Shown: positions 1 through 16,760 of the stretch, piece by piece
Layout: each line of letters begins with the position of its first letter
How positions within the stretch are numbered: position 1 is the stretch's first letter
Made by a program: the position numbers and the translations under genes
Assembly (NCBI GenBank): GCA_020723405.1
Contig: DYIY01000004.1
Coordinates: 124,001-188,000 of the forward strand
Source: Thiobacillus denitrificans
GTDB taxonomy: Bacteria > Pseudomonadota > Gammaproteobacteria > Burkholderiales > Thiobacillaceae
Reading direction: 5' to 3'
DNA: 64,000 nucleotides
The notes under the pieces: generated by a model
What the model was told of the DNA's origin: nothing
Seen by the model: the letters and a program-made list of their open reading frames with translations, nothing else
The model's database searches: none

Positions 1-121
1 TGAAGCTGCCTTCCACGCTGGCCAGGTAGGCCCGCAGGGGATAGGGCGGCACCTGTTCCGTATCGCGGATGCGGTGGATCTCCGGCAGGCGTTCGTAGAG
101 GGGGACGCGGGGCAGGCTCAT
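1..121 (-). CDS. Tail protein I-like eCIS baseplate protein (5' part only)
   Basis: Only the first 40 codons lie in the window; the gene continues past the left edge. The start is the ATG at 121, which overlaps the stop of the preceding large baseplate gene in an ATGA arrangement, so the two are translationally coupled. The N-terminus reads MSLPRVPLYERLPEIHRIRD, which resembles the N-terminus of the phage tail protein I-like proteins that follow the two J-type baseplate genes in eCIS loci. In those systems this protein is thought to connect the baseplate to fibres or to the outer rim. Family assignment rests on position and about 40 residues, so it is tentative. Confidence 0.6.
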   Translation of the reverse strand, partial: MSLPRVPLYERLPEIHRIRDTEQVPPYPLRAYLASVEGSF

Positions 122-2823
122 GGACAGGCTCCGGCGGGGGTGGCCACGGACACCAGGGTCAGGTGGGGCGGGGCCAGTTGCAGCATTTCCTGGGACGCCG
201 GGCTCAGCACTGCCGCCAGGGAGCGGGGCATGGCGGGCAGGGCCAGATTGGCGGGATCGTCGTCTTCCGGCAGGTTGGCGTCGTTGGGCGCGAACATGCC
301 CAGGGCCGTGGCCCGGCACCAGAGGACGCCCGGCACCGCCTGGACGCTGCCCTGGATGCGGCTGGCGTATTCCTTCTGCCCCAGGCGGCGCCGGCCCAGG
401 CCGAACAGGCCCGTGTACCGGCTGGCCTCGTCACCGGCCAGGCCCAGGGCGCCGCGGATGGCGGCTTCCAGATCGGCTGTGGCCAGGGCCGGGTTGCCGG
501 CGTAGTCCAGGTCCAGCCACAGGTAGCGCAGGAAGGCCTGCTCCACGGTGACCGGGAAGCGATTGGGGCCCCGGCAGCGCTGCCAGTCCTGGAGGGTGGC
601 CCGCACCGTCTCGAACTCCGTTTCCCGGCCGGCGGCCATGAGCACCCGCAGGCTCAGGCCGGGCACGCCGCCGTTCATGGCCCAGGCAGCGCTGGCCGTC
701 ACCACGCCGGGGATGGCCAGGGTTTCGCTTTCGTAATCGGCCAGGCTCACCAGCCGACCCAGGCCCTGGACCTTGCCCGGAGCGGCCCGGCGGGCCTTGT
801 CCTGGACTTCCGGTTCGGCCCCGCCGCTCACCACCCCGGGCAGGGCCACCTTGTCCAGACCCTCCACCTTGCTGCCGGCCGACGGGCTGGCCCCGGCCTT
901 GAGGGGGCCGAAGGCGCCGCTGCCGGTGCGCCAGGCGGCGCTCACGTTCTTGATGCCCGAGGGCAGGCGGGCCCCCGTCTCCCCGTCGCCGAACTGCACG
1001 TAGCTGTTGCCCTCCGGGTCTTCCCGGACGATGTAGACCCGGGCATCCGGGGACTGGCCGAAGAAGCTGTCCACCCGGTCCCACAAGCGGCCGCCCACCC
1101 GCACCTCCAGTTCCGGCGCCTGGGGCGGCGTGGCCCCGGCGGACAGGAGCCAGGTCAGGGGCCCCTTGGGCAGCTTGAAGGTCTGGAAACGCAGGCGGGC
1201 GTCGCCGTTGCCCAGCACGGTCTCGGCTTCGGCCTTGCCCTGGGTGGCGTCGGCCAGGTTGCCGTAGACGGTGACGGTGGGCGCTGCCTCGTCGAAATCC
1301 GCCCGGGTGAAGGGGGCCGGCGGAGCGTCGAAGGACAGGGACCACATCCTCGGCTCATGGGCCCCCACGGCCATGACGAAGCCCGTGGCCGAGTTGGTGC
1401 AGGTCAGCTCCGCCCGGCGGCCTTGCTCGTCCACCAGGATGAGGCGCCGGCCGGCCAGGGTGCGGACTTCGCCCTGGGTGCCGAAGAAGCGCAGGGCCTG
1501 GTTGCCGTCGCTGAACGCGGCGCCGTAGGCGGGATCGTGGGCCTGGGGGACCAGGCCCAGGGCCGGGCTGGTCACTTCGTGGATCAGGTAGTCCCGCACG
1601 TCGGCCTGGGCATCGTCCAGGTCCGGGTTGCCCATGAGGGCCGTGTCCAGGGTGAGCAGGGTGGATGAACCGGTGAGACTGCCGAAGCCCAGGCTGGTAG
1701 TGCGCAGGCCCACCAGGGTCTTGTATTCCACCAGGTCCCGGGCCGTGGTGCCCGCCCCCGTGTCCACCCGGGTCTGGACCAACAGCCCGGCATTGACCGG
1801 CAGGTCGTTCACCTGCTGGTCCAGGGGCAGGGTCCGTCCGGACAGATCCAGGCTGCAATCGGTCATGGAACACACATGGTCGGTGCCCAGGTGCCGGCGG
1901 AAGCGGGTGTCCGCGACGGTACTGCCGGTGATGGTGCCCGACGCGTCGGTGTCCGGTGTGGTTTGGGTCAAGGGCGCGTTATGGCCGAAATGCCGGAAGC
2001 TGCGCCCCAGCCGGTAGGCGGTGGCGGGCTTGGCCCAGCTTTGCCGCAAGGGGGCCTCCAGGTCCACCAGGGTGCGGTCCAGGATCAGCCGGACGGCCTT
2101 CACCTTGACGATCTGGGGGGTCTTCTGGGCGGGGGACAGGGCGCTGCCCGTGTGGGTCCAGGCCGGCTCCGGGGGCAAGAGCATGAGCCGGTCCCCGGCC
2201 TTGAGCTTCAGGGGCGCCAGCGCATCGGGGCCGGTCACGCCGGCCACGGTGGCAATCTCCAGGGTCGTGGCGCCCGCCGCGAGACTGCCGGCATAGCCCC
2301 GGGCCCGGTAGAGGTTGAAGCGGGACAGGTGGGGGTGGGCGGTGAGTTCGTCCCGGGTCAGGAAATCCGCCGGCTTGTCCTGTTCCTCCAGGTCGGCCTT
2401 CACCGGGAAACCGGCGGGAAGGGTGACCGGGGCCTTGCCCTTCACCTGGAAGGCAAAGGTGGCCAGCCCGCCGATGCCCGGCGCCAGCCGGTAGCCGGTG
2501 AGGCGCACCAGTTCGGCGATGCTCTCCCGCCAGGCGGCGGTGCGCAGGAAGGCCTCGTTGGCGTAGCGCTCCTGGTAGAAGCTGAGGATGTCCCCCAGGA
2601 TGGCCGCCCCCTCGACCAGGGCGATGGCCGGATCGTCGGGATGGCGATGGGTGAAGGCGGACAGTTCCGGGGCCCGGTCGATGTCCCGCAACATGGCTTC
2701 CAGGAACTCCGGATAGGCGCCGATGCGGTAGCCGATGTGGGGCAGGGCCGGCCGGTTGAAGGGCCGGCGGGGGAAGACGAAGCCGTCGGTGTAGAAGGGG
2801 TTGCAGTCATCGGCCATGGTCAT
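118..2823 (-). CDS. Putative eCIS baseplate assembly protein (J-type, second copy)
   Basis: A 901-aa protein of the putative baseplate assembly (baseplate J-like) group, related in position to Afp/Pvc11-12 wedge proteins. The N-terminal 100 residues hold a conserved helical stretch (DPAIALVEGAAILGDILSFY, then YANEAFLRTA). The C-terminal third carries the J-type signature VSLADYESETLAIPGVV around residue 680. Wedge proteins of this kind surround the spike hub and trigger sheath contraction. The start at 2823 gives MTMADD; a second ATG lies two codons downstream. It follows the first J-type gene after a 310-bp repeat-filled gap and overlaps the next gene by 4 nt. The family is clear; its exact wedge position is inferred. 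Confidence 0.85.
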   Translation of the reverse strand: MTMADDCNPFYTDGFVFPRRPFNRPALPHIGYRIGAYPEFLEAMLRDIDRAPELSAFTHRHPDDPAIALVEGAAILGDILSFYQERYANEAFLRTAAWRESIAELVRLTGYRLAPGIGGLATFAFQVKGKAPVTLPAGFPVKADLEEQDKPADFLTRDELTAHPHLSRFNLYRARGYAGSLAAGATTLEIATVAGVTGPDALAPLKLKAGDRLMLLPPEPAWTHTGSALSPAQKTPQIVKVKAVRLILDRTLVDLEAPLRQSWAKPATAYRLGRSFRHFGHNAPLTQTTPDTDASGTITGSTVADTRFRRHLGTDHVCSMTDCSLDLSGRTLPLDQQVNDLPVNAGLLVQTRVDTGAGTTARDLVEYKTLVGLRTTSLGFGSLTGSSTLLTLDTALMGNPDLDDAQADVRDYLIHEVTSPALGLVPQAHDPAYGAAFSDGNQALRFFGTQGEVRTLAGRRLILVDEQGRRAELTCTNSATGFVMAVGAHEPRMWSLSFDAPPAPFTRADFDEAAPTVTVYGNLADATQGKAEAETVLGNGDARLRFQTFKLPKGPLTWLLSAGATPPQAPELEVRVGGRLWDRVDSFFGQSPDARVYIVREDPEGNSYVQFGDGETGARLPSGIKNVSAAWRTGSGAFGPLKAGASPSAGSKVEGLDKVALPGVVSGGAEPEVQDKARRAAPGKVQGLGRLVSLADYESETLAIPGVVTASAAWAMNGGVPGLSLRVLMAAGRETEFETVRATLQDWQRCRGPNRFPVTVEQAFLRYLWLDLDYAGNPALATADLEAAIRGALGLAGDEASRYTGLFGLGRRRLGQKEYASRIQGSVQAVPGVLWCRATALGMFAPNDANLPEDDDPANLALPAMPRSLAAVLSPASQEMLQLAPPHLTLVSVATPAGACP

Positions 2824-3133: not shown

Positions 3134-5674
3134 TCATTGCCGCCCTCCCCCCAGGTTGAAGGTGATGTAGCCCTGTTCCCGATGGTCCGGGTCGCTCTTC
3201 ACCAGGAAGATTTCGTCGAAGGCGGCTTCCAGCATGTCGGGGGCGGCCACGGCGGGGGGCGGCAGGTTGAAGCGGCGCATGCGGATTTCCACGGCGTGGT
3301 CCACGCCGGCCACCTGGGCCAGGCGGCCTTCGATCTGGCTGCGGTGCAGGGCCTGGCCGAAGGTCCAGGCGTCCGGGTGGAAGAAGCCCATCCCGCCGTC
3401 CCCGGTCCAGCCGGCGGAGAAGGCCTGCTCCAGTTCCCAGCGCACGTCTTCCACCCAGAAATCCGGGTGCAGGCAGAGGTCCACTTCGATGGCCAGGGGC
3501 ACGAAGCGGGGGGGGCGGATCTCCAGGTCTTCGCCGATGAGGCGCACGGCTTCCAGATGTTCGGCGGCGGCCAGGGCCAGGTCCGGGTCCAGCAGATCGG
3601 TGCCGGCCGGGTCCAGGGCGATGCGCACGGTGCGCCAACTGCCGGTCCAGGCATAGCGGGCCACGGCCCGGGCCACGCCGGGGACTTCCATGGCCCGCTT
3701 TTCGTAGTCGGCCAGGGTGACGGCGCGCAACTGGCGGGCCCGGAAGGCTTCCGGGGCGTGGCGCACCACCTTTTCCACCGGCTCCGGGTCCCGGCCGTCG
3801 CTCACGTCGAAGGGGTTCCACACGGCCACGACGGCGTCCACCAGGGGCCCGGACAGGGGCAGGAAGTCCACCACCGAATTGGCCCCCACGTTGCCCGTGG
3901 CGCCGCCCCCCACCTGGTAGCGGCAGTGGACGATGGCGCCCGGGGGGATGGACCGGCCGTTGACCCCGTTGCCGAAGCGCAGCCGGCTGCGGCTTCGCTC
4001 GTCGGTTTCCACGGCGAAGTGGTCGCCGTTCTCGGCGGTGTCGTCGCTGTGCACCAGGCTGATGACCTCGTCCCAGCTTTCCTCGGCGCCCCCCGGGGGC
4101 TCCACGCTGACCGTCAGGGTGGATCGGGGCGGCACCTCGCCGCCCGCCGGGGTGGGCAGGTAGGCCAGGGGGCTGTCGGGCAGCTCGCACAACACGCCCC
4201 GTTCCTCGCCGTAGAGGGACCAGCGCCGGAACCAGGCGTGGCGTTCGGTGTCGCTGCCGGCGGGCAGCGGGCTGCCCGGTTCGTGGAAGTGGGTGCTCAC
4301 CGGCAAGCCCTGGTGGACCTGGAGCAGGTTGCCGTGGAAGGCGGAGACATTGGCCACGCTGCCCAGCACGGGACAGACGGTTTCAAACGCGTAGTCCTGG
4401 CGCAGGGCGTCCTCGGCCCGCCAGTTCACCCGGACCAGCCAGGTGTTGTCGAGGGGATCGAAGAGGGTGCGGGCCGCCAGGTCGCCGGCCGCCAGGCTGT
4501 CGCCGCTCACCAGCCGCAGCAACTGCCGTTTGCGCGGGTTGCGGCCGGGCAACTGGCCGGTGAGGGGGTTGAGCTTTTCCTCGATGAGCAGGCGGGCCAG
4601 GGTGCCGTCCCGGACCCAGTCACGCAGTTGTTCCGCTTCCGCCTGGCCGGCGCCGAACTGGTCGCTCACCAGGTCGGCCTGGGTGGCACCGGCCGCCAGG
4701 CCCGGTTGAGCGCCGCTCCAGGTGTGCAGCCGCAGGCTGTTGAGCAGGGGGTCCAGCAGGGTCCGTCGGGCCGGGTCCAGGTCGGTTTCCCGGGTGGCGA
4801 ACCACAGCCGTTCCGCTCCTTCGGCCCGGCCCCCGGCCCAGGCCAGCAGTTCCTCGTCCAGACTGAAGCTCGGCGCCACCGGGTCCAGTTCCAGGGCCAG
4901 CCAGGTGCTGGACTGGTTGCCCTGGTGCAGGTGGTAGTCCACCAGCCGGGCATGGCGGGCCAGGGACACCCGCTGCCGGCAGGTGGCCAGCCAGGCTTCG
5001 TTCATGACCCGGTCCTGGAAATCCGACAGTTCGTCGGCGGCGGCGGCGAACAGGTCCAGGAGGGTCTGGTCCAGGTCCGCCTCGCTGCTCACCTGCCAGC
5101 CCGGCACCCGTTCCATCATGGCGTTGATGAGGGTGTGGCGGAAACTGTCGTAGTCCTTGGCCAGGTAGTCGATGGCCGGGGCGGGCAGGCGCGGCCGGCC
5201 CGGGTTGGCCGGCGGGGCGCAATGGCCGGTGAAGCAGCCGGGGCGGAACTTGAAGGGCAGTTCGGCGAAGAAGGGGTCGATGAACGCCGGGTCGAAGACC
5301 AGTTCCACCCGGTAGGTGGAGTAGTCGCCGATGGGTTCCACCGTCAGCACCAGGCTGATGGGGTCGCCGTTGCCGTCGTTCTGGCCGGCGGCCACCGCCG
5401 TACACCTGACCTGGCCCGCCCCCGGCCCGGCCCGCAGGCGCTGGCCGCCCTTGACGACGAAGGTGCTGCCCGCCGCCGCCTCGCTGGCGCCGGCCTGGAG
5501 CAGGATGGCGTCCACGTGCAGGGCGTTGATGAAGAACACTTCCAGCAGGGCCTGGCTGCCGGACAGTTCCACCAGGCCCAGGCGCAGACCGTTGCGGCCG
5601 GCGGCCAGCAGGTCGTTGGCCCGCTCGTCCCGGGCGTCGGGGTTCTGCAAGGGGGGAACGATGGGAATCTGCAT
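3134..5674 (-). CDS. Putative eCIS baseplate assembly protein (J-type, first copy)
   Basis: An 846-aa large baseplate wedge protein. After an N-terminal domain of about 170 residues comes a motif typical of eCIS baseplate assembly proteins (AIDYLAKDYDSFRHTLINAM), followed by a helical region with DLDQTLLDLFAAAADELSDF. Near residue 660 is the baseplate-J signature VTLADYEKRAMEVPGVARA. The end reads GYITFNLGGGRQ. Together with the 901-aa paralogue downstream it would form the inner and outer wedge, by analogy with Afp11/Afp12 and T4 gp6/gp7. The gene starts 12 nt after the gp25-like gene. It is intact, and the family call is secure. Which of the two large proteins is the gp6 equivalent cannot be told from sequence alone. 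Confidence 0.85.
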   Translation of the reverse strand: MQIPIVPPLQNPDARDERANDLLAAGRNGLRLGLVELSGSQALLEVFFINALHVDAILLQAGASEAAAGSTFVVKGGQRLRAGPGAGQVRCTAVAAGQNDGNGDPISLVLTVEPIGDYSTYRVELVFDPAFIDPFFAELPFKFRPGCFTGHCAPPANPGRPRLPAPAIDYLAKDYDSFRHTLINAMMERVPGWQVSSEADLDQTLLDLFAAAADELSDFQDRVMNEAWLATCRQRVSLARHARLVDYHLHQGNQSSTWLALELDPVAPSFSLDEELLAWAGGRAEGAERLWFATRETDLDPARRTLLDPLLNSLRLHTWSGAQPGLAAGATQADLVSDQFGAGQAEAEQLRDWVRDGTLARLLIEEKLNPLTGQLPGRNPRKRQLLRLVSGDSLAAGDLAARTLFDPLDNTWLVRVNWRAEDALRQDYAFETVCPVLGSVANVSAFHGNLLQVHQGLPVSTHFHEPGSPLPAGSDTERHAWFRRWSLYGEERGVLCELPDSPLAYLPTPAGGEVPPRSTLTVSVEPPGGAEESWDEVISLVHSDDTAENGDHFAVETDERSRSRLRFGNGVNGRSIPPGAIVHCRYQVGGGATGNVGANSVVDFLPLSGPLVDAVVAVWNPFDVSDGRDPEPVEKVVRHAPEAFRARQLRAVTLADYEKRAMEVPGVARAVARYAWTGSWRTVRIALDPAGTDLLDPDLALAAAEHLEAVRLIGEDLEIRPPRFVPLAIEVDLCLHPDFWVEDVRWELEQAFSAGWTGDGGMGFFHPDAWTFGQALHRSQIEGRLAQVAGVDHAVEIRMRRFNLPPPAVAAPDMLEAAFDEIFLVKSDPDHREQGYITFNLGGGRQ

Positions 5675-5686: not shown

Positions 5687-6067
5687 TCAGTTGCCGGTCC
5701 GCTGGAAGCGCACCACCCGGGAATCCGGGCTGCCGGCGGGGCGGTATTTCACGGTCACTTCGACGAGGGCGCCGCTGAATTCCACTTCCAGACCCTCCAG
5801 GGTCAGGCGATGGCCCAGCCAGCGGGACAGGGCCTGGGTGATGCGCGCCTTGACCACGCCGCGCAGCACATCGGAGGCGGGCTCAAACACCAGTTTGCGC
5901 ACGCCGCCGCCGAACTCCGGCAGGAACAGCCGTTCGCCGGGGCTGGTGAGCAGCAGTTGCAGCAGTTCGTCGCGCACGTGCTCGGCGTCGGACGGCGGGG
6001 TGGCGCTGCGGCCATCGGCGCCGATCCGGAAGGGGAAGGCCAGGTGGCGGCCGGTGGACAGGGCCAT
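5687..6067 (-). CDS. GPW/gp25-like baseplate wedge protein
   Basis: A 126-aa protein of the gp25/GPW family, the small wedge component that joins sheath to baseplate in T4, T6SS (TssE) and eCIS. Seen: an N-terminal HLAFPFRIG strand, then a helix (EHVRDELLQLLLTSPGERLF) leading into the conserved PGERLFLPEFGGGVRKLVFEP, which matches the family core with the EFG-like turn. The C-terminal half is beta-rich. I chose the ATG at 6067 (MALSTG), which lies 2 nt after the stop of the PAAR-like gene; an upstream extension would overlap that gene entirely. Operon spacing is tight on both sides. Confidence 0.9.
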   Translation of the reverse strand: MALSTGRHLAFPFRIGADGRSATPPSDAEHVRDELLQLLLTSPGERLFLPEFGGGVRKLVFEPASDVLRGVVKARITQALSRWLGHRLTLEGLEVEFSGALVEVTVKYRPAGSPDSRVVRFQRTGN

Positions 6068-6069: not shown

Positions 6070-6420
6070 TCAGCTTCCTTTCACGACCTGCTGGACCTGC
6101 ACCACGCTGGGCGGGCCCTGGGGGATCTGCTCGGCGCTCAGGCACAGGCCCACGCTGGATTGCAACAACACCGGCACGCCCCCCACCTTGGTCTGACTGG
6201 CCCCCACCAGCCACTGGACGGTGGTGCAGGGCTGGGGCTTGGTGCCGGTGCCGATGGGAATCTGGAAGGGACAGCCGCTCACCGAATGCCGGTCGGACAA
6301 CAGCAGGGCCGGGCTGCCCTGGATGTTGGCCTGGCTGTTGCTGGTGGACAGTTGCACCTGGCCGCCGTGGGGGCACATGAGGGTGCTGGCGGTGGTGAGG
6401 ATGTAGTCGGACATGGTCAT
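6070..6420 (-). CDS. PAAR-like spike-tip protein
   Basis: A 116-aa protein encoded directly after the gpV-like spike and before gp25, the usual place of the eCIS spike-tip protein (Pvc10-like, PAAR-like). It contains a CPHGG motif near residue 16, then repeated short strands and further cysteines (GCPF, QPC, GLCL). This pattern fits a metal-stabilised, sharpened beta-cone like the PAAR tips that cap VgrG trimers. The ATG at 6420 overlaps the spike gene stop (ATGA). A second in-frame ATG two codons later is possible. The role is inferred from position plus the Cys/Gly pattern; sequence identity to canonical PAAR repeats is low. Confidence 0.7.
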   Translation of the reverse strand: MTMSDYILTTASTLMCPHGGQVQLSTSNSQANIQGSPALLLSDRHSVSGCPFQIPIGTGTKPQPCTTVQWLVGASQTKVGGVPVLLQSSVGLCLSAEQIPQGPPSVVQVQQVVKGS

Positions 6421-6986
6421 CCCCCCACCTTGAAGGCGTCGTTCACCAGGCTGGCCCCGGCGGTGGTGACCTTGACCATGCCGTTGTTGAGATTGATCTC
6501 GGTGCTGCTGATCTTCAGCTCGCAACTGCCCATCTTCAGGGTGATGCCGTCGCCGTCCATGACGATTTCCGCGCCGCCGGGGTGGATGAGCTTCATCTCG
6601 TTGGCGTCCTCGTCGATGAGTACCTGGTGGCCGGCGGAGGTGCACAGCAGGCGGGCCTTCTCGCCGTCGGGGGTGGGCCGCTGGCCTTCGCTCCACCAGC
6701 AGCCGGTCCAGATGGGGTAGCTGATGTCGCCGCCTTCGAATTCGATCCACACCCCGTCCCCCACTTCCGGGAGCAGGGCCAGGCCGTGGCCGGCGCCGGC
6801 AAAGGGCAGCGCGGGCAGGGCCCAGGGGGAGTCCTGCTCGCCATAGACCGCCGGCACCGTGGCCTTGATGCGGCCCCGCTTGTCCGGGTCGGCCACGTCC
6901 CGCACCAGGCCCCGGTACTTGCCGAAATGGCGATCCCGCTGGGCTTCCGCCAGGCGATAGAGGAGGTCGTCGTTTTCACCGGACAT
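6417..6986 (-). CDS. gpV/VgrG-like baseplate spike protein
   Basis: A 189-aa central spike protein. Residues about 15-90 form a Gp5/VgrG-type OB-fold: YRGLVRDVADPDKRGRIKAT, then WALPALPFAGAGHGLALLPE and VGDGVWIEFEGGD. The C-terminal part has alternating short strands (DGDGITLKMGSCELKISSTE) as in the triple-stranded spike helix. It is much shorter than T6SS VgrG because the gp27-like hub is a separate gene (7229-8374), as is typical for eCIS. The ATG at 6986 (MSGEND) is preferred over a longer frame from 7010 because the extra residues are low-complexity and run into the repeat region. It overlaps the PAAR-like gene by 4 nt. Confidence 0.88.
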   Translation of the reverse strand: MSGENDDLLYRLAEAQRDRHFGKYRGLVRDVADPDKRGRIKATVPAVYGEQDSPWALPALPFAGAGHGLALLPEVGDGVWIEFEGGDISYPIWTGCWWSEGQRPTPDGEKARLLCTSAGHQVLIDEDANEMKLIHPGGAEIVMDGDGITLKMGSCELKISSTEINLNNGMVKVTTAGASLVNDAFKVGG

Positions 6987-7228: not shown

Positions 7229-8374
7229 TCACACCAACGAAAAGCTGGCCGAGAAGCCCAGGGACAACCCCCCTGCCCCACCGGCGGGATCCGGCGGCGT
7301 GGCGGTATCCGCCTGGGAGTCGCTGCGTGCCTCGATGTCCTGGGTGTACAGGGAGGGGGTGATGCGGTGGGTGACCTTGGTGAGCAGCCAGTCGCCGGAC
7401 AGGGGACTGTCGCCGGCCCGCAGGGTGATGCGCTGGTAGGGGCTGAGGACGGCGCTGTAGCAGCCGGGCACCACCTTGCCGCTCAGGCGGTAGGCGCCGG
7501 CGGACCGGGCGGCGCGGCCGGCGGCGTGGGCGGCGGCGGTGTCCGGGTGGTTTTCCTCGGGGGGCAGCAGGCGGGTGGCCTGGCGGTCCAGGGGCACGGC
7601 GGGGAAGTCTCGCAGCAGGGCGGCCTCCTGCTGGGCGGTGTCCTGGCTTTCCACCTGGCCGTCCCCGTCCCGCAAGGTGTGGGCCTGGGTGGATTGGGGA
7701 CCGGCCCCGTCCCGGGTGACCTGCACCTCGTCCAGGTTGCGCCCGCTGCCCATGAGGGTGAGGGGCGGCAGGAGGGGGGGCTCGGTCGGGTCCGGCAGGT
7801 AGCAGCCGATGCTGCTGCCGGGGGTGCTGCCGGGCAGCACGTAGGCGTGCCAGTGGCGGGCCCGGGCCAGGCTCGACAGGAAGGCCATGGGAGAGCCCCG
7901 GCGCACCAGGTTGCGGGGCGGGTCGTTGTCCGGGGGCTGGATGCGGTGGGGGGTTTCGGCCTGGGGCAGTTCGTCGAACAGTTCGGCGGCCAGGGCGGCT
8001 TCGCTGGCCTGCTCCCGCACGTCCACGGCTTCCACCCGGTCCAGGAGAAAACGGTCGTCCTGGACCACCAGGGTCAGGCTGCTGCGCCCGGGCCGGGCGT
8101 CCATGGCGGTGTCCACGCTGGCCACGCTGCCGTCGATGAGGGGGGTCACGCTGCCGTCCACCACCATCTCCACCCGGATGCGGGTGAAGGGTTCGTTGAA
8201 TTCGTCCTTGTCGTGCTTCCAGTGGCCGGCCTCGTCCAGACACAGGGCGAGGCGGATCCGGGCCTCCCAGGACACGTCCATCTCCTGTTCCACCACGATC
8301 TCCTCCACCCGGGCCAGTTCTTCCAGGGTGGCGGGCGCGCTGCCAAGCCAGAGGCGGAATCCGGTGTCGGCCAT
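7229..8374 (-). CDS. gpD-like (gp27-type) baseplate hub protein
   Basis: A 381-aa protein of the phage late-control D / gp27 hub group, the trimeric ring between tail tube and spike. Seen: a beta-rich N-terminus with EEIVVEQEMDVSWEARIRLA, a middle domain with WHAYVLPGSTPGSSIGCYLP, and a C-terminal strand region (YQRITLRAGDSPLSGDWLLT, then VTHRIT) that matches the end of the hub tube domain. The start ATG at 8374 shares one base with the stop of the LysM-like gene (TGATG). The last 35 residues are Gly/Ala-rich and probably flexible. Position before gpV is the standard eCIS order. Confidence 0.85.
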   Translation of the reverse strand: MADTGFRLWLGSAPATLEELARVEEIVVEQEMDVSWEARIRLALCLDEAGHWKHDKDEFNEPFTRIRVEMVVDGSVTPLIDGSVASVDTAMDARPGRSSLTLVVQDDRFLLDRVEAVDVREQASEAALAAELFDELPQAETPHRIQPPDNDPPRNLVRRGSPMAFLSSLARARHWHAYVLPGSTPGSSIGCYLPDPTEPPLLPPLTLMGSGRNLDEVQVTRDGAGPQSTQAHTLRDGDGQVESQDTAQQEAALLRDFPAVPLDRQATRLLPPEENHPDTAAAHAAGRAARSAGAYRLSGKVVPGCYSAVLSPYQRITLRAGDSPLSGDWLLTKVTHRITPSLYTQDIEARSDSQADTATPPDPAGGAGGLSLGFSASFSLV

Positions 8375-8646
8375 CAGGTCCTCGGCAGGGTCAGGGTGTC
8401 GCCCGGCACGGCCACCAGCTCCCGGGCATCCAGGGCGGTGTTGGCGTCGGCGATGTGCCAGAAACGGGTGCCGTCGGCATGGCTGGCCTGGGCCAGCACG
8501 TCCAGCCGGTCGTGGTCGGTGACGGCGTGGGGATCGCCGATGACGTAGGGCAGCCGGCGCAGTCGCAGGGCTTTCACCGGGCGGCCCTGGGCGTCCGTGG
8601 TGTCGTCCTGGGCCACCTGGGCATAGCGGGAAGTGTCGAGGAACAT
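8374..8646 (-). CDS. LysM/tail protein X-like adaptor
   Basis: A 90-aa protein between the Pvc7-like gene and the hub, in the place of the LysM-domain adaptor of eCIS (Pvc/Afp7-8 region) and of tail protein X in P2-like phages. The C-terminal half contains RLDVLAQASHADGTRFWHIA followed by ADANTALDARELVAVPGDTL, the usual helix-strand pattern of a LysM/gpX fold ending in a PGDTL turn. In eCIS this domain helps join the hub to the inner tube. Only one LysM unit is present, and there is no signal peptide. Confidence 0.75.
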   Translation of the reverse strand: MFLDTSRYAQVAQDDTTDAQGRPVKALRLRRLPYVIGDPHAVTDHDRLDVLAQASHADGTRFWHIADANTALDARELVAVPGDTLTLPRT

Positions 8647-9588: not shown

Positions 9589-11688
9589 TCAGTCCTCCAA
9601 CTGGGGGGCCCAGGGGCCAAACAGGTCGGGGCTGACCGGGCGGCCCAGCTTGTCCAGTTCCCGCCGCACGGCCCCCAGCACCACCGGCATGTCCAGGCGC
9701 CGGCCCGCTTCCCGGGCCGCGCCCTGCAGGCAGGCCTGGAACACCACGGAGCGGATGTGGCCGCCAGCCAGGGCAAACTGGCGGGCCAGGAAGGGGAAGT
9801 CCAGGGCGGAGACATCCACCGCCGGGGGCATGGCCCGGCGCCAGATGGCCTGGCGCTCCTCGGGTCCGGGCAGGGGGAAATCCACCAGGAAGCGCAGCCG
9901 GCGCAGGAAGGCTTCGTCCAGGTCCTTCTTGCGGTTGGTGGCCAGGATGGCCAGGCCCCTGAAGCGCTCCATGCGTTCCAGCAGGTAGCCCACTTCCTGG
10001 TTGGCATAGCGGTCGTGGGCGTCCTTCACTTCGGTGCGCTTGCCGAACAGGGCGTCGGCCTCGTCGAAGAACAGGATCACGTCGGCGGCATCGGCGGCGT
10101 CGAACAGCCGGCGCAGGTTCTTCTCGGTCTCTCCGACGTATTTGTTCACTACCTGGGACAGGTCGATGCGGTACATGGGCATGCCCACGGCCCGGGCGAT
10201 GACCTCGGCGGCCATGGTCTTGCCGGTGCCCGGTGGGCCGGCGAACAGGGCCGACAGGCCCCCTTCGTTCCAGGCCCGGGCGGTGCCCCATTCGTGGTGG
10301 ACCCGGGTGACCTGGGCGGCGGCCCGCACCAGTTCCCGGATCTGTCCGGCTTGGCGGGGCGGCAGCAACAGGTCGTCCAGGGTGAAGCGGGGGTCCACGG
10401 GCTGGGCCAGTTCGCCCAGGTGCACGTCGCCCCGGCAGGCGGCCAGCACGTCCTGGGCCTGGGGCGGACGGCCCAGGCAACGCAGGGTGGCGCAGACCCG
10501 TTCGATGCCGGCCGGCGGGAAAAGGAAGCGCCGGGCGGCCTCCGCCAGGGCACCGTCCAGGCCGGGTTGGCCCAGGTGGTCGGCCAGGCCGGTCCGCCAA
10601 TGGGCCAGGCGGCCGGCGTAGTCCAGGGCCGGGGGGGTGAGCAGGGGCAGGGTGTGGGCGGCGGGCAGGCGGCGGGCCTGGGTCCGGTCTTCCACGAACA
10701 CGAACACGGTGAGGGGCAGGCCCGGCAGGGGGATCGCCACCGGCGCGTCCTGGTGGGCATCCCGTTCCAGCAGGGCAAAGTCCAGGCAGGGCATGAGACC
10801 CTGGAGCCAGGCCAGGGTGAAGCGGGCCGGCAATTGCTCGGGGCCCAGGCCCGGGGGCAGGCACCCCACCCGGCTGCCCAGTTGGGTGGCCAGGGCAGCG
10901 GCGGTCTCGGCCAGGGGGGCATCCAGCCCGCCCAGCAGGGGTTGCAGGTGCAGCCGATCCCTGGGGGCGGCCTTGAGACGGGCGGCAGCCAGGGCCAGGT
11001 GGGGGTCGGGTTCCGTGCCCTGTTCCCGGGTAGCAGGGGGACCCGGCGGATCCAGCAGGCAGGCGGCCACGGCAGGGGCCACCGCCAGGGGCGTGTCCCA
11101 GTCGGTGCCGCCGGAGAGAAGACCGAAACGGAACAGCCGGCGGCCCGGGTCGGCCAGGGCCATGATCTCCTCCGGCCGGTCCCACAGGCGCTGGGCCAGG
11201 GCCAGGCTGGGGCGGGTGCGTCCGGCATCGTTGAGGCAGGCGGCGAAGACGCTGCCGGCGGCGCTGTCGGCGGCAGCCAGCAGGGCCAGGGCCAGGACGA
11301 AGCGTTCCGCTCCGGCCAGTTCCAGTTCCCGGGCCACCCAGGCGAAACCGCCCCGGCGGGGGGCCGGCTCCCCGGGGCCGCCGGGTTCCGGCCGGCGCAG
11401 TTGTTCCCCCAGCCAGGCGGCGGTCTCGTCCCGGGCCAGGAATTCCGCCTTCTCGGCGCCCCAGCGGGTGAGATCCAGGGCCGATTGCAGGGGATCGCCC
11501 AGGGGCGGCAGCAGGCCCGCCTGCTTGGCCGGATCGGCGCCGGCCAGCAGGCCCCGTTCCCGCCACAGCCAGCAGATTTCCCGGCGCAGGCGCAGGGTGG
11601 CCTGGGCCAGCCAGTGGGCCGCCAGGGGCTCGGCCACGGTAAGAGCCGGCTGGAACCCGGCGGGGTGGGGAATCTCGTGCATGCGCAT
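9589..11688 (-). CDS. eCIS AAA+ ATPase (Pvc15-like)
   Basis: A 699-aa ATPase. The N-terminal 450 residues form an accessory region with poor recognisable motifs. The C-terminal AAA+ domain has Walker A GPPGTGKT at about 484-491, Walker B VILFFDEADALFG at about 540, and a sensor-type ATNRKKDLDEAFLRRLRF with the arginine finger region. Known: eCIS and some phage-tail systems encode such an ATPase (Afp15/Pvc15); it is needed for particle production or cargo loading rather than firing. The ATG at 11688 shares a base with the preceding stop (TGATG); an ATG two codons later is also possible. A reading frame extending further upstream overlaps the Pvc16-like gene and is not used. Confidence 0.92.
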   Translation of the reverse strand: MRMHEIPHPAGFQPALTVAEPLAAHWLAQATLRLRREICWLWRERGLLAGADPAKQAGLLPPLGDPLQSALDLTRWGAEKAEFLARDETAAWLGEQLRRPEPGGPGEPAPRRGGFAWVARELELAGAERFVLALALLAAADSAAGSVFAACLNDAGRTRPSLALAQRLWDRPEEIMALADPGRRLFRFGLLSGGTDWDTPLAVAPAVAACLLDPPGPPATREQGTEPDPHLALAAARLKAAPRDRLHLQPLLGGLDAPLAETAAALATQLGSRVGCLPPGLGPEQLPARFTLAWLQGLMPCLDFALLERDAHQDAPVAIPLPGLPLTVFVFVEDRTQARRLPAAHTLPLLTPPALDYAGRLAHWRTGLADHLGQPGLDGALAEAARRFLFPPAGIERVCATLRCLGRPPQAQDVLAACRGDVHLGELAQPVDPRFTLDDLLLPPRQAGQIRELVRAAAQVTRVHHEWGTARAWNEGGLSALFAGPPGTGKTMAAEVIARAVGMPMYRIDLSQVVNKYVGETEKNLRRLFDAADAADVILFFDEADALFGKRTEVKDAHDRYANQEVGYLLERMERFRGLAILATNRKKDLDEAFLRRLRFLVDFPLPGPEERQAIWRRAMPPAVDVSALDFPFLARQFALAGGHIRSVVFQACLQGAAREAGRRLDMPVVLGAVRRELDKLGRPVSPDLFGPWAPQLED

Positions 11689-12884
11689 CAGGCCACCGTC
11701 ACCGTGGGGCTCATGCGGGCCTGCTGGCCGTTGACCAGCAGCACCACCTGGTAATCGCCGGCCGTGAAGGGGCCGGGTGGGGCCTGGGCCACCACCCCGG
11801 CCAGGGTGAGCTGTTTCTGTGCGGGGCCGGGCACGGCGGTGTCGAACACCCGAACGGTGGCCCCGTCCCTGTAGAAGGCCACCAGAATGTCGTCGTCGAC
11901 CGTGCCCAGCAACAGGCCGCTGAGGGTCAGGGTGCCCGCCGCCAGGTTGGCGCTTTCCAGCACCGGCAGCAGGCGGGCGGTGAGCAGGTTGCTGCCGCGA
12001 TAGCGGTTGTTGGGCATGAGCTGGCGCACCAGCAGGGGATGTTCGCCGGCCGAGAGGGTGGTGCCGGCGGCGATGGGACCTTCCGTGGCGGGGGGACTGA
12101 AGGGCCCGTCGGCCAGCAGTTCCAGCCGGTCCGGCCGCTGGCCGGTGATGTCCAGGGACACATTCCCCAACAGGCATTCCAGGCCCGAGGCATGCAGATC
12201 TTCGCCGTTGAGGACGAAGGGGGCGGCCGGTTCGAAGGCCAGCGGATCCAGGCTGTCCAGCTTGGGCCCCAGGCCGGCCAGCACCGCCAGGCCCACCCCC
12301 TCCAGGCCAATGATCTCCGGTGGCGCCTGGGTGTAGTCCACGCCCACCAGCAGGGAGACGGTGGGGGGCACGTCGGGGGCGATCATGATGGGCCGGACCT
12401 GGAAGGACACGGACAGCCGATAGTGTTCCTCGCTGCCCTGCATGAGCTTGGATAGCAGGTCGGCGGGCGTCTCCTCGAAGGTGATCTTGAGGGGTTCCGG
12501 ATTGTTCTCCAGGGCAGCGCGCACATCGGCGGCCAGGCCCGCGTCCAGGCGCAGGTAGTTGAGTTCGTGGAGGGCGGCCAGGCCCCGGCCCAGGAGCTCG
12601 TGGGCGGCGGCGCTGTCCGACAGGTTGTCGGCATCGAACGCTGTGATGAGGAAATGCAGGGACAGCCAGAGGGGGGCCGGCTGGTCTTCCAGAAGACCCA
12701 CGTTGCGCAGGCTGGCGTCGAAGTCGGTCTGATAGAGGAACAGGTTGAGCTTGTTGGAGGCACTGTTGTCGCCGGCTGCCGTATTGGGCGGGCCGATGCT
12801 CACGCCGAAGGCACGGCGGATGAGGTGGGTCTGCAGGAGCCGGGTCACCGCCCCGATGGCCCGTCCGGAATCCGCCAGTGCCAT
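11688..12884 (-). CDS. Tube-terminator/cap protein (DUF4255, Pvc16-like)
   Basis: A 398-aa protein. Residues 1-190 match the DUF4255/Pvc16 N-terminal domain: a start with a helix (VTRLLQTHLIRRAFG), then NKLNLFLYQTDFDASLRN and the characteristic LWLSLHFLITAFD segment. This domain forms the hexameric cap that terminates the tube and sheath. The rest (about 215-398) holds two beta-sandwich, Ig-like repeats (for example APFVLNGEDLHASGLECLLG and AGDYQVVLLVNGQQARMSP), an extension often seen in bacterial DUF4255 proteins. Its gene lies next to the ATPase, as in other eCIS loci. The cap role is known for the family; the role of the Ig-like part is unknown. Confidence 0.88.
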   Translation of the reverse strand: MALADSGRAIGAVTRLLQTHLIRRAFGVSIGPPNTAAGDNSASNKLNLFLYQTDFDASLRNVGLLEDQPAPLWLSLHFLITAFDADNLSDSAAAHELLGRGLAALHELNYLRLDAGLAADVRAALENNPEPLKITFEETPADLLSKLMQGSEEHYRLSVSFQVRPIMIAPDVPPTVSLLVGVDYTQAPPEIIGLEGVGLAVLAGLGPKLDSLDPLAFEPAAPFVLNGEDLHASGLECLLGNVSLDITGQRPDRLELLADGPFSPPATEGPIAAGTTLSAGEHPLLVRQLMPNNRYRGSNLLTARLLPVLESANLAAGTLTLSGLLLGTVDDDILVAFYRDGATVRVFDTAVPGPAQKQLTLAGVVAQAPPGPFTAGDYQVVLLVNGQQARMSPTVTVA

Positions 12885-12898: not shown

Positions 12899-13852
12899 TC
12901 ATGGATGGATGCAGCGGCGGGCCAGGCCGCCACGGCTCGGGCCCTGGCTGGCCGGCCGGGCAGGAGCAGGCCGGTTGGGGGGAGAGGCGGGGGGCGTCAC
13001 CCGCACCTGGACTTCACCGATGGAGATGCGCACCAGGTCTTCTTCCGGGTGGGCGGTCTGGGGCATCCCCTCCCCGCCCCCTGCCGCGCCGGGTGTGTTC
13101 GGTCCCGAGGGGGGGACGGACCGGAGTGCAGGTCGGGGCGGGAGGGGCTGCGGGGTGACCCCGGCCGGCGGCGGGGCTGGTGATGGGGAGGGTGAATGGT
13201 GGGCAACCGGAAGGTCGCCGGCTGGCGCCGGCGGCAACGCCCGGGGACTCGGGGCAGGACCAGGGACCCGGTCCGGCGGCGTGGCGACCCAGCGCAGGGC
13301 CCGTTGCAGAAGCTGCCCCTCTTCGGGGGGGATGGCGTCCCCGGGCGGGAGCCGGTGTGCCGGGTGGGTGTCCGGGGCGGCAGGAAGCCGGCCGCCCGAC
13401 GGATCCGTCCGGGTCTGGGACAGTGGTTCCCGGGCTTTGGGGGCCGGGGAGGGGATGGACAGGAAGGGAACGGCGGCCGGCTGTCCCCGTTCCGGACCGG
13501 CGGGCGGCCCGGAACGGGCGGGAAATTCCACCGGCTCCAGGGACGGGCGTGGGACTGGGGAGCCCCCCCCGGGGGAGGCCGGGACCGGCCCATCGGCACC
13601 GGCCACTGCGGATTCGTCAGGGGCACTCCCGGCCTGGCGGGCGGATGGCCGGTCCGGCGGTACGGGCGTGGGACGGGAAGCCAGGGGAACGCCTGGTGGC
13701 GAGAGGACCACTTCCTCTTCGATTTCGAGAATGTCCCCGCCTCCCGGAGTGGGAAGGGATGGGGCCGGCCCGGCCACCGCGACGGGGAGGGCCGCAGGCA
13801 CCACCATGGCCGGATGCAGCAGTCGGGCAAAGTAGCCGGGCACGGGGTTCAC
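12899..13852 (-). CDS. Proline-rich eCIS-associated protein with conserved-looking C-terminal strand motif
   Basis: A 317-aa protein starting at GTG 13852, chosen because it overlaps the upstream stop in a GTGA arrangement; longer frames use unlikely upstream starts inside the neighbour. The N-terminus (VNPVPGYFARLLHPAMVVPA) is short and structured-looking. Residues about 30-280 are extremely Pro/Ala/Gly-rich and likely disordered. Near the C-terminus is EEDLVRISIGEVQVRVTPP, a strand motif that I associate with short linker proteins of other eCIS loci. It lies between the zinc-ribbon-like protein and the cap gene (14-nt gap). No enzyme motif, signal peptide or membrane segment is visible. A flexible linker or cap-associated accessory role is possible but not shown. 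Confidence 0.75.
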   Translation of the reverse strand: MNPVPGYFARLLHPAMVVPAALPVAVAGPAPSLPTPGGGDILEIEEEVVLSPPGVPLASRPTPVPPDRPSARQAGSAPDESAVAGADGPVPASPGGGSPVPRPSLEPVEFPARSGPPAGPERGQPAAVPFLSIPSPAPKAREPLSQTRTDPSGGRLPAAPDTHPAHRLPPGDAIPPEEGQLLQRALRWVATPPDRVPGPAPSPRALPPAPAGDLPVAHHSPSPSPAPPPAGVTPQPLPPRPALRSVPPSGPNTPGAAGGGEGMPQTAHPEEDLVRISIGEVQVRVTPPASPPNRPAPARPASQGPSRGGLARRCIHP

Positions 13853-14619
13853 GGCCAGGTTCCTTCCTGGTCGAGCAGGTCCAGGTAGGCGGCCCGCCGG
13901 TGGCCGGGCAGGGCCAGGATGTCGGCCTCCCGCCAGCCGTAGCGGCTGGCCAGGCGGTGCACTGCCCGGATCAGGCGGCGGGCCTGGCCGGCCAGCCGGG
14001 CCAGAAGCAGGCCCTCCAGGTCCAGGGGCAGGTCGTCGGCGTGGCCGCAATGGGGGCAGGCGCTGTGCACGGCGAAAGCCGGCAACAGGTCCGCTTCGGC
14101 CATGGCCTCGGCCACCCGGGCCAGCAGCCCGGGGGCCTGGGCGGGCATGTCCCCCTCCAGCAGCAAGTCATTGAGCACGTCTGCTTCATCGAGGTCCGGA
14201 TCGGCCAGCCAGCGGCGCTGGTCGGCCCCGGTGGGCCGGCGCAGGGCCAGGCGGGGGCCGTCGGCCAGCCGCACTTCCACCCGGGGCCCCCGGGCTTCCC
14301 GTCCCAGTTCACCGATGGCCGCCAGGGACAGGCGCACTTCGAAGGGTTCGGCGCAGCGGGGGCAGGTCAGGGGCACCACCAAGGCATCCTCTTCCCCGGT
14401 CCTGGCCAGGATTTCCGCCAGGGCGCCGATGCGTGCCCCCAGGCTCAGGCTCCAGGCCTGCTCCAGGGCTTCGGCGGGATCACACCCGGACCGGCAGGTG
14501 GCCAGCACCCGGCTGACCAGGACAGGCCGGTCCGCGCTGTGGAAGTCCAGGTCCAGATCCCCCGGGCTGCCGAAGGCCCGCCAGGTCATGGGTGGGGTGA
14601 TTGCGCTTGCGGGACGCAT
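13849..14619 (-). CDS. eCIS-associated protein with two CxxC pairs (putative tail-assembly factor)
   Basis: A 256-aa soluble protein between the tube gene and the proline-rich gene. Two cysteine pairs (TCPRCAEPFEVRL near residue 87 and ACPHCGHADDLPLDLEGLLL near 190) look like the two halves of zinc-ribbon knuckles. The C-terminal 60 residues are helical and basic (YGWREADILALPGHRRAAYL). In T4-like tails the gene after the tube often encodes a baseplate-hub assembly chaperone, and the helical C-terminus would fit, but I recognise no family. The start is uncertain: ATG 14619 (used) or ATG 14589 (MTWRAF). Its stop overlaps the next gene's GTG start, so the two products are made together. Confidence 0.75.
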   Translation of the reverse strand: MRPASAITPPMTWRAFGSPGDLDLDFHSADRPVLVSRVLATCRSGCDPAEALEQAWSLSLGARIGALAEILARTGEEDALVVPLTCPRCAEPFEVRLSLAAIGELGREARGPRVEVRLADGPRLALRRPTGADQRRWLADPDLDEADVLNDLLLEGDMPAQAPGLLARVAEAMAEADLLPAFAVHSACPHCGHADDLPLDLEGLLLARLAGQARRLIRAVHRLASRYGWREADILALPGHRRAAYLDLLDQEGTWP

Positions 14620-14648: not shown

Positions 14649-15173
14649 TCAGGCGGCCGCCGGTACCGGGCTCTTCTCGTCGGGTTCCTTGGTCTCCGGA
14701 TCCCGGGCCCAGCCTTCCAGTTCGATCTTGATGCTCTCGATGGCGATGGCGTTGGCGTTGGCGTCCAGGTCCGGCATGGCGGTGAATTCGCTCACCCAGC
14801 AGCGGTAGAGGAAGTAGCGCTTGGCCACGTGGCCTTTCTCGTTGAGCACTTCCAGGGTCAGGTCCTTCTTGTAGTTCACCAGGTCCATGGCCGGGTCGCC
14901 GCTGTACTGGTGGACCAGGTTGGCCCAGGCCTCGAAGGCCAGGTCGTGGGTGATGCCCCGCTCCATGCTCACCCCCTCGTAGGTGGTGCGCCCGGGGGAC
15001 TTGCGGTCGGTGCTGTTGTCGCCCCCGTCCCGGTGCTTGACGACTTCGGTGGTGCGCTTCAACGCCCCCACCTTGCTGACGCCCATGACCACCTTGCCGT
15101 CGAGAACCACGCGAAACTTGAAGTTCTTGTACGGATCGATGCGGTGGGCGTTGGTGACGAATCCTTTGGCCAT
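14649..15173 (-). CDS. Inner tail tube protein (T4 gp19-like)
   Basis: A 174-aa tube protein. The start DPYKNFKFRVVLDGKVVMGV and the stretch KVGALKRTTEVVKHRDGGDN, followed by SPGRTTYEGVSMERGITHDL, are characteristic of gp19-type tube subunits of eCIS and phage tails. A region near the end (VSEFTAMPDLDANANAIAIE, then IKIELEGW) matches the conserved C-terminal strand. Hexameric rings of this protein stack to form the channel that carries cargo. It follows the sheath gene by 30 nt. Only one gp19-like gene is present, whereas PVC and Afp loci have two, so the same subunit may serve throughout, with the Pvc7-like protein as initiator. Confidence 0.93.
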   Translation of the reverse strand: MAKGFVTNAHRIDPYKNFKFRVVLDGKVVMGVSKVGALKRTTEVVKHRDGGDNSTDRKSPGRTTYEGVSMERGITHDLAFEAWANLVHQYSGDPAMDLVNYKKDLTLEVLNEKGHVAKRYFLYRCWVSEFTAMPDLDANANAIAIESIKIELEGWARDPETKEPDEKSPVPAAA

Positions 15174-15203
15174 GGCAGGTTTCCCCCGGTGTCTGGAAAT
15201 GGG

Positions 15204-16760
15204 TTATTGCAGGTCGCCGGCGATCTGCTGGATGGTGAGGACCACGAACTCCGCCGGCTTCAGCGGGGCGAAGCCCACCTCGATGTTGACGATGCCCAGG
15301 TTGCGGTCCGCCTGGGTGGTGGTCTCGGCGTCGCACTTCACGTAGTAGGCCTCGTTGGCCGTGCTGCCCTGGAAGGCCCCCTGGCGGAACAGGCCGTTCA
15401 TGAACACCCCCAGGTTGAGGCGGATCTTGGCCCACAGGGGTTCGTCGTTGGGCTCGAAGACCACCCACTGGGTGCCCCGGTAGAGGGATTCCTCGATGAA
15501 CAGGGCCAGGCGGCGGATGGGGATGTATTTCCATTCCGAGGCCAGCAGGTCGGCCCCCACCAGGGTACGGGCCCCCCACACCAGATGGCCGGAGACCGGC
15601 ATGGTGCGCAGGCAGTTGAGCCCCAGGGGATTGAGGATGCCGTTCTCCGCGTCGGTCATCTTGTAGGCCATGGCGCTCACCCCGGAGAGGGAGGCATCCA
15701 GGCCTGCCGGCGCCTTCCATACGCCCCGCTGGGCGTCGGTGCGGGCCATGATGCCGGCCACGGCGCCGCAGGGGGCGAACAGGGCCGGGCGGTTCTCCGC
15801 CAGGGGGTCAGCCATGAGCAGGCGGGGGAAATAGACCGCCGCATTGTGGGCCGGGTCGCTGCCGATGGTGCCGCGCAGGGTGCTGATACCGGTTTCCGCA
15901 TCGCCGATGGGGTCGCTGCTGGTGCTCCAGCCTTCCGGGGAATCCACCACCAGCATGGCCCGCCGGTCCCGGCAATAGGCGGCGGCGGCGGTCCAGGTGG
16001 CGTCCCCCACGTCCGTTTCCCGCTCCAGGGGCGGGATGCACAGCAGGTTGAACAGGTCCACCGATTCCAGGGCCCACAGCCCCTGGCGGCCCGCTTCCAG
16101 CCCGGCGCCGGAAATCTGGGTGTCGGTGATGGCGGCGCCGTCGTCGCCGCTGCCGTCGGCATCCACGCTGCCATCGCCGGGGCTTTCATCCACAGGCGCC
16201 GGGGTGCGCACCCGCACCAGGCCCGATTGCTCGGCCAGCACGGAATCGACGAACCGGGCGTGAGCGGGTGCCACGGACACGTTGCGGAACACCTCCGTGG
16301 CCAGTACCCGGGTGCCGCCGGGGGCATCCAGTTCCTGGACCGTCAGGTTGAACAGCAGGGCATCGGCGGGATCCCGGGTCACGTGGTCCACCGTGGCCCG
16401 CAGGTTGTTTCCCCAGAGGCCGGGACTGGCCGCCTCCAGCACCAGGTTGCCGGTGGCGGTGGGCAAGGTGAGGGTGGCGCTGTCGCCGGCCACGTCGCCG
16501 TTGAACACCCGCACCACGATGGCATCGCTGCCGCCGTGCAGGAAGAAATGGCTCAGGGCATAGCCCAGGGGCGCCTCCGACCACAGGCCGCCGAAGCGGC
16601 GCGTGAAATCGGCGAAGCTCTGGATGCGCACCGCTTCATCCACCGGCCCGCGCCGGGCCCGGCCGATGAAGGCGGTGATGGACGTGGCCACCCCGGTGAT
16701 GGTGCGCACCCCGCTGGCCTTCTCCTGGACGTAAACCCCCGGGTAACTGACTTGTACCAT
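15204..16760 (-). CDS. Contractile tail sheath protein
   Basis: A 518-aa sheath protein. The N-terminus YPGVYVQEKASGVRTITGVA, followed by SITAFIGRARRGPVDEAVRI, is the hallmark of eCIS and phage sheath subunits. The C-terminal 150 residues (LGLNCLRTMPVSGHLVWGART, then EWKYIPIRRLALFIEES and VEVGFAPLKPAEFVVLTIQQ) form the conserved inner domain with the handshake strands. The ATG at 16760 has GGAGG eight bases upstream; a further in-frame ATG at 16781 lacks this support. It is the first gene of the locus, directly after a 284-bp non-coding stretch, so the operon promoter should lie upstream. A single sheath gene is seen, whereas PVC loci carry three. Confidence 0.95.
   Translation of the reverse strand: MVQVSYPGVYVQEKASGVRTITGVATSITAFIGRARRGPVDEAVRIQSFADFTRRFGGLWSEAPLGYALSHFFLHGGSDAIVVRVFNGDVAGDSATLTLPTATGNLVLEAASPGLWGNNLRATVDHVTRDPADALLFNLTVQELDAPGGTRVLATEVFRNVSVAPAHARFVDSVLAEQSGLVRVRTPAPVDESPGDGSVDADGSGDDGAAITDTQISGAGLEAGRQGLWALESVDLFNLLCIPPLERETDVGDATWTAAAAYCRDRRAMLVVDSPEGWSTSSDPIGDAETGISTLRGTIGSDPAHNAAVYFPRLLMADPLAENRPALFAPCGAVAGIMARTDAQRGVWKAPAGLDASLSGVSAMAYKMTDAENGILNPLGLNCLRTMPVSGHLVWGARTLVGADLLASEWKYIPIRRLALFIEESLYRGTQWVVFEPNDEPLWAKIRLNLGVFMNGLFRQGAFQGSTANEAYYVKCDAETTTQADRNLGIVNIEVGFAPLKPAEFVVLTIQQIAGDLQ

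Follow-up and report, generated by a model that had tools for sequence, protein, structure and literature searches.

Which kind of contractile injection system (CIS) is encoded at the beginning of this stretch of Thiobacillus denitrificans DNA, and on which cells would it act? The stretch, hereafter the window, comprises 64,000 nucleotides (G000:C13:124001-188000, where C13 is contig DYIY01000004.1), and the open reading frames (ORFs) were taken from positions 1-17200. An earlier note had reported sixteen minus-strand genes of an extracellular CIS (eCIS), and the 15 complete CIS genes and the start (first 40 codons) of a sixteenth that we found on the minus strand of positions 1-16781 agree with that count. 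With the genes to the left of position 1, the cluster appears to be a complete, fibre-bearing CIS of the DUF6519/eBAP5 lineage, which probably injects proteins into other cells.

Families were scored with Pfam, NCBIfam and PHROGs, and profiles of the machine parts were built from the cluster's own proteins and run on 85 loci, which consisted of the present locus, four from kin genomes and the 80 loci that ranked highest in a scan; they returned one and the same layout. The sheath, gp19-like tube, cap, ATPase, gpV spike, PAAR-like tip, gp25 wedge and two J-type baseplate proteins named in the earlier note all have family profile matches (Table 1). The hub, LysM/X and Pvc7-like genes on the same list have no Pfam match over the cut-off; their putative identities are supported by position, the own-built profiles and the annotation of homologues in two plasmid loci. 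In locus L109, the hub profile match corresponds, by order and length, to a protein annotated "VgrG/Pvc8 family", and the Pvc7-like match likewise to one annotated LysM. Single-sequence searches of solved structures gave nothing useful for J1 and J2, and the cap had no match among solved structures. By gene content, the cluster counts as an eCIS under the definition of Geller et al. (2021), which asks for four or more linked core genes from three or more different core Pfam families; the core families found were sheath, gp19, Pvc16_N, AAA, gp25, Baseplate_J and DUF4157.

The assignment to the lineage is based on the fibre and its adaptor. The fibre and cargo genes had been guessed to lie beyond position 1, and a DUF6519 fibre and DUF4157 proteins are indeed encoded there. 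The N-terminal DUF6519 of the fibre scores 53.1 bits against a cut-off of 22.4, and a Tail_P2_I gene is located upstream. PMC12923769, the sole match for DUF6519 in a full-text search of an open-access library, names this domain (2026), in the part available, as eBAP5, one of five fibre anchors, with Tail_P2_I as its likely adaptor in a previously missed eCIS subtype. Judged by the two features tested, the fibre DUF6519 and Tail_P2_I, the present locus is a member of eBAP5. It also resembles the eBAP5 loci as described in that part in its beta-helix fibre, the position of Tail_P2_I directly upstream, Baseplate_J, gp25 and the spread over multiple phyla. The same source portrays eBAP5 loci as largely devoid of Afp12 homologues, a description with which the second J gene sits uneasily; this gene may count as Afp11 or Afp12. 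Unlike the eBAP5 fibres described, the present one (L002:13038-17798, minus strand) ends in an HHH domain (HHH_5, 5.3e-5) and a Lys/Arg-rich tail. The C-terminal HHH was rejected as a trait of the lineage, as it is clear by Pfam in this protein but weak in L127 (0.025), was not found in G041 and was recognised in G051 only by eye; of 46 fibre rows, in which one protein appears twice, the majority have a different C-terminus.

The earlier note had considered the order and compactness of the cluster special. The order does differ from that of the Photorhabdus virulence cassette (PVC) and the antifeeding prophage (Afp), but it is ordinary within its own lineage, and we rejected it as a novelty. 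Sheath, tube, chaperone-like gene, cap and ATPase follow one another on one strand in all 70 loci (of the 85) that contain all five genes, and in each of the 17 loci where four or more baseplate genes are present, these too keep their order. The genes are mostly tightly packed, as had been stated, except for two gaps of ~310 and ~240 bases that hold palindromic repeats. DUF6519 (PF20129) was detected in 46 of the 47 genomes searched (45 over the cut-off), which were those behind 47 of the 80 named loci. Neighbouring genes were read in 40 regions from 40 of these 46 genomes, some of which end early. The next annotated gene before DUF6519 is of the Tail_P2_I type in all 40, a J2-type gene precedes Tail_P2_I in 39 (the fortieth is cut by the contig end), and both J types are present in 36. 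A DUF4157-profile match is the next annotated ORF after the ATPase in 51 of 70 loci; in the present locus, the DUF4157 genes instead lie at the far end of the cluster. On a plasmid of Streptomyces europaeiscabiei, the same machine type (L110:27431-41086) has its baseplate-fibre half on the strand opposite to the sheath half. PVC and Afp have the core machine in common with the cluster but carry several sheath genes (Pvc2-4, Afp2-4), compared with one sheath, one tube and the DUF6519 fibre here; their fibre is of the Afp13 type, according to the available text of PMC12923769.

In a single-sequence search, the best solved relatives of the sheath were 9ezm (5.1e-75) and 8bky (1.6e-67), with the sheaths of PVC, Afp, the thylakoid-anchored CIS (tCIS) and AlgoCIS scoring far below both. 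We take 8bky to be the sheath of CISSc, the Streptomyces system. The accessible part of PMC11566945 names 9ezm for a haloarchaeal system. The sheaths of S. clavuligerus (885 bits) and Haloferax larsenii (1,189 bits) are close relatives of 8bky and 9ezm, respectively. A sheath tree of 94 rows, prepared by a quick method with Shimodaira-Hasegawa-like approximate likelihood ratio (SH-aLRT) support only and a midpoint root for drawing (L019, 227 residues, was left out as too short), places the present sheath within a group of 85 rows on a branch with a support of 100. The S. clavuligerus and H. larsenii sheaths lie outside this group, as do those of Deinococcus grandis, G051 and the four same-genus rows. 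Within the group, the present sheath clusters with rows from Methylococcaceae, Comamonadaceae, Azoarcus and Pseudomonas guryensis (support 100). Within the same genus, 9 of the 22 genomes gave a sheath match, their best ones with 34-47% identity over the matched part, and this patchy spread suggests transfer. Subtype IId, as outlined in the part of PMC12998442 available, unites Roseiflexus and Deinococcota systems with CISSc; an early leaning to file the present locus there was dropped after the sheath tree and the comparison with the S. clavuligerus cluster.

The statement in the earlier note that no tape measure is visible has become doubtful, as the note had overlooked two genes between the tube and the cap, one for a conserved T4_baseplate-family protein and the other for a Pro-rich protein, which is a candidate inside the window. 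The former is probably an assembly chaperone. Of the 56 aligned members of this chaperone-like family, 52 match PF12322 (best 4.1e-23), and a single one reaches a family of tail-assembly chaperones (0.0014); the protein encoded here matches neither at 0.01. Four Cys residues are invariant in the family, and the AlphaFold model of the present protein has a mean predicted local distance difference test score of 88.7. The family profile found nothing below 0.38 among solved structures.

The Pro-rich protein has no family match in Pfam, NCBIfam or PHROGs, and the conserved features of the proteins encoded in this slot are located at their ends. The N-terminal consensus is MSDFLARLAARALG ... RPRLPSRFEP and the C-terminal consensus is VHVTIGRIEVRA ... 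SLDDYLRRR; an alignment of 43 candidates shows near-invariant columns at both ends and a few prolines. A gene with the C-terminal motif lies between the chaperone-like gene and the cap in 64 of 70 loci, and its start overlaps the chaperone-like stop by four bases in 44 of these 64. The regular expression used matches 76 of 6,840 ORFs (at least 100 residues) overall and missed six of the 70 loci (G051, L060, L080, L094, L100 and L105), several of which hold variants by eye. The length has a median of 268.5 residues and ranges from 114, which is probably a start-site error, to 1,116. With profiles built without the present copy, its C-terminal motif was recovered (7.7e-5) and its N-terminal motif was not found; the S. 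europaeiscabiei protein in L110 has both motifs (3.6e-7 and 7.8e-9), and L108, L109 and L111 have neither below 0.2.

In myophages, the gene that follows sheath, tube and chaperone occupies the tape-measure slot, and Pro-rich rulers occur in type III secretion. We tentatively suggest that the Pro-rich protein may be a ruler, being encoded in that slot after the tube and chaperone-like genes and differing in length among loci while its ends stay conserved. There is about an even chance that it is instead a flexible tether, a scaffold or a cargo adaptor, or that the present copy is decaying. Short conserved ends with a variable linker suit a tether equally well, and the present copy, besides having no N-terminal profile match, has no SLDDYL end and a lower G+C fraction at third (0.77) than at first codon positions (0.83). 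Moreover, not every CIS needs a ruler, because CISSc keeps one fixed length although its tape-measure gene is absent, as stated in the part of PMC12237407 available.

A second candidate feature concerns the cargo. Five proteins of this genome contain a CxCGGxCPxC motif, namely the DUF4157 proteins P0002, P0003 and P0008, the peptidoglycan-binding-domain protein P0005 and the aspzincin-like P0007. It is near the N-terminus in four of them, and in P0002, whose start is uncertain, it is located 67 residues before DUF4157. P0008 is encoded on another contig, C26; an ORF on the wrong strand beside its gene was also read and gave nothing. We rejected the strict motif as a lineage-wide tag, since among 22,669 ORFs from 129 loci, a set with a few overlapping stretches in which some ORFs are possibly counted twice, it is confined to four ORFs of the present locus, two of them without DUF4157. 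The looser motif CxCG[GN]-x(1-12)-CxxC occurs in 30 ORFs of the 129 loci, including 20 of the 97 DUF4157 ORFs, and in none after five rounds of shuffling. Another loose match, found in L157, appears to be coincidental. In a second set (12 loci, 1,082 ORFs; 0.1 matches per shuffling round), the looser motif was observed in 4 of 16 DUF4157 ORFs (the C26 protein, one in G021 and two in G041), and also in one non-DUF4157 ORF of G021 with a visual resemblance to P0005. Because only 20 of 97 and 4 of 16 carry it, most DUF4157 ORFs are without this motif.

The looser motif appears associated with the machine type (23 of 91 versus 0 of 20, p 0.012), in a test that assumes related proteins to be independent, excludes both G021 ORFs and counts among the others G051 (DUF6519 fibre but a sheath outside the group), G004 (no sheath match) and several same-genus genomes whose sheaths were not placed in the tree. 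In G021, which belongs to the same genus, the tagged DUF4157 ORF and the tagged peptidoglycan-binding-like ORF lie near a contig end (L155:633-1928 and 2083-6318, minus strand). Neither a sheath nor DUF6519 was detected in G021, and the two ORFs may be orphan cargo or reflect missing assembly. Across a common set of 61 genomes, DUF4157 itself was found in 12 of the 15 with a sheath match and in 3 of the 46 without one, and DUF4157 proteins have been described as tube cargo in AlgoCIS. PMC11297309 reports having found no specific conserved sequence in the loading signals of PVC and Afp cargo. The Cys motif may aid cargo loading. The ruler candidate and the cargo-like Cys motif both seem to be new. 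That the DUF6519 lineage combines a Pro-rich, largely disordered ruler of ~190-1,100 residues with a four-Cys cargo mark (CxCG[G/N]...CxxC) that acts independently of DUF4157 and loads tagged non-DUF4157 proteins is a rather doubtful extension of these two points.

The sheath, tube, cap, ATPase, gpV spike, PAAR-like tip, gp25, two J proteins, adaptor, fibre and DUF4157 proteins are identified by sequence, and from the gene content we infer the following course of events. The two J proteins, gp25, hub and spike would assemble the baseplate first. The T4_baseplate-family protein would then serve as an assembly chaperone, and the Pro-rich protein perhaps as a ruler, during growth of the tube and sheath, which the cap would stop. 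The ATPase may help to load the DUF4157 proteins and their tagged neighbours. The particles would be released through lysis of the producer; their DUF6519 fibre, attached via the Tail_P2_I adaptor, would then bind a target cell, and contraction of the sheath would push the cargo into it. Action outside the producer, on other cells, is likely, as the presence of a fibre and its adaptor favours it. The gene-cluster observation of the earlier note and its eCIS assignment stand, its special order, compactness and missing tape measure aside; "extracellular" is still an inferred property.

Several points weigh against this view of the cluster. The best DUF6519 stretch of the fibre spans only profile positions 1-178 of 593, and the genome of G059, which has the same machine type, gave no match to DUF4157. 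A lysis gene that would explain release was not seen. The solved sheath relatives act variously, in the cytoplasm, bound to membranes or outside the cell. Keyword searches of an open-access library brought up no study of DUF6519-system particles, and the sheath tree covers part of the studied systems.

It is unlikely that the cluster encodes a cytoplasmic CIS like CISSc, whose particles remain in the producing cell and, under stress, discharge at its own membrane. Among the solved relatives of the sheath, that of CISSc ranks second, and the CISSc/SLP systems (IId) are similar in having one sheath gene, a TIGR02243-type wedge and a DUF4255-type cap. Like the fibre-less CISSc, which is described without Afp14-like tape measure and Afp13-like fibre in the available part of PMC10066040, the present cluster has no Afp14-like gene. 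A crude hydropathy scan of the cluster proteins found, apart from weak stretches in the ATPase, J1 and the fibre, one strong hydrophobic stretch of ~35 residues in the second DUF4157 protein, which might reach a membrane. However, DUF6519 was not seen in the S. clavuligerus CISSc-type cluster, which has a single J gene and two tubes, with the cap and ATPase upstream of the sheath; its sheath does not group with the present one, and the present cluster has a fibre gene.

A membrane-anchored, contact-dependent system similar to the haloarchaeal CIS that resembles the type VI secretion system (T6SS) (clade IIa) is, in our judgement, quite improbable. It has the closest solved sheath and, like the present cluster, a pair of cis11 genes, and its secreted proteins include DUF4157 proteins (PMC11566945, in the part available). 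In contrast to the present collinear cluster, the haloarchaeal system comprises two separate gene blocks and a putative membrane anchor with six membrane helices, and the hydropathy scan found no multi-helix membrane protein among the cluster proteins. The H. larsenii sheath lies outside the present clade, and neither DUF6519 nor Tail_P2_I gave a profile match in the cluster that encodes it. A prophage remnant or R-type tailocin can practically be dismissed: the machine families are common to phage tails, but the check for head genes proposed earlier found no capsid, portal or terminase in a Pfam scan of nine proteins on the left side and six on the right, which covered small ORFs in part; mostly housekeeping families lie beyond the cluster, and the ATPase, DUF4255 cap and DUF4157 are eCIS core domains of Geller et al., as given in the available part of PMC8213781.

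The whole CIS block is collinear, extends over ~32 kb and has housekeeping genes on both sides; its features and neighbours are listed in Table 1. The product of the small gene beside the ATPase has no relatives in the loci examined. The two operon gaps, one after J1 and the other before gpV on the minus strand, contain palindrome pairs of the form CCCCCTTT-n-AAAGGGGG (window 2942-3026 and 7038-7124, two per gap); the expression used found no full CCCCCTTT-n-AAAGGGGG palindrome elsewhere in the window. The same Pfam scan of flanking proteins, which covered small ORFs in part, found no T6SS gene within 10 kb of the cluster. A TssK match (4.3e-129) at G000:C13:216160-217443, outside the window and ~75 kb away from the sheath, gives this genome a T6SS marker in addition to the CIS; a review (PMC8910223) describes this combination as rare.

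Table 1. Genes of the CIS cluster and its surroundings, from left to right (C13, contig coordinates; others, window coordinates).
Feature	Position	Strand	Evidence
ABC1-kinase and IF-2B family genes	C13, left of the peptidoglycan-binding gene		Pfam
Peptidoglycan-binding-domain protein (P0005)	C13:108915-110141	-	Pfam
Unassigned ORF	C13:110151-110987	-	Pfam scan
Second DUF4157 protein, 1,240 aa	C13:110819-114541	-	2.8e-25
DUF4157 (eCIS_core) protein	C13:114546-117035	-	5.8e-31; start uncertain, open frame overlaps preceding gene
Aspzincin-like protein (P0007)	C13:116164-117000	-	2.3e-6, just under Pfam cut-off
Fibre, 1,586 aa	C13:117038-121798	-	DUF6519 (PF20129) 2.7e-14; CarboxypepD_reg, beta-helix and HHH matches
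Tail_P2_I adaptor, 778 aa	C13:121785-124121 (window 1..121 = first 40 codons)	-	PF09684 1.2e-5, over cut-off
Baseplate J2, second TIGR02243-type	118..2823	-	TIGR02243 1.6e-37 (under cut-off); phrog_219 1.4e-13
Baseplate J1 (Cis11-like)	3134..5674	-	PF04865 8.2e-9; TIGR02243 1.2e-55 (over cut-off)
gp25 baseplate wedge	5687..6067	-	PF04965 8.9e-13
PAAR/DUF4280-like tip	6070..6420	-	PF14107 1e-5 (just over cut-off); PF05488 1.9e-4 (under cut-off)
Spike gpV	6417..6986	-	PF04717 3e-26
Putative hub (gpD/Pvc8-like)	7229..8374	-	Weak PHROG tail match, phrog_52 6.7e-5; own-built profile
Putative tail protein X/LysM-like	8374..8646	-	Own-built profile; L110 homologue annotated "tail protein X"
Putative Pvc7-like tube initiator/adaptor	8659..9330	-	Own-built profile, 35 ORFs matched
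Small protein, ~84 aa	9332..9586	-	Own profile, only own match
AAA+ ATPase	9589..11688	-	PF00004 4e-30
Cap/tail terminator (Pvc16_N, DUF4255)	11688..12884	-	PF14065 9.6e-25
Pro-rich protein, candidate ruler/tape measure	12899..13852	-	Conserved C-terminal motif; tape-measure slot
T4_baseplate-family protein with two pairs of CxxC; probable role as assembly chaperone	13849..14619	-	Conserved neighbour gene
Inner tube (gp19-like)	14649..15173	-	PF06841 5.8e-38
Contractile sheath (Cis2-like)	15204..16781	-	Phage_sheath_1C 7.4e-11; best solved relatives 9ezm, 8bky
293-aa protein, signal-like hydrophobic start	17045-17926	-	Directly upstream of sheath gene; no family over cut-off
H+-pyrophosphatase, phosphofructokinase and adenylate kinase genes	Right of the 17045-17926 gene		Pfam

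The DUF6519 lineage spans many phyla in the sample used here. If the proposed roles are true, the ruler candidate would open length control in this lineage to direct tests, and the cargo motif would do the same for loading; the Cys motif could also help to list cargo proteins that have no DUF4157.

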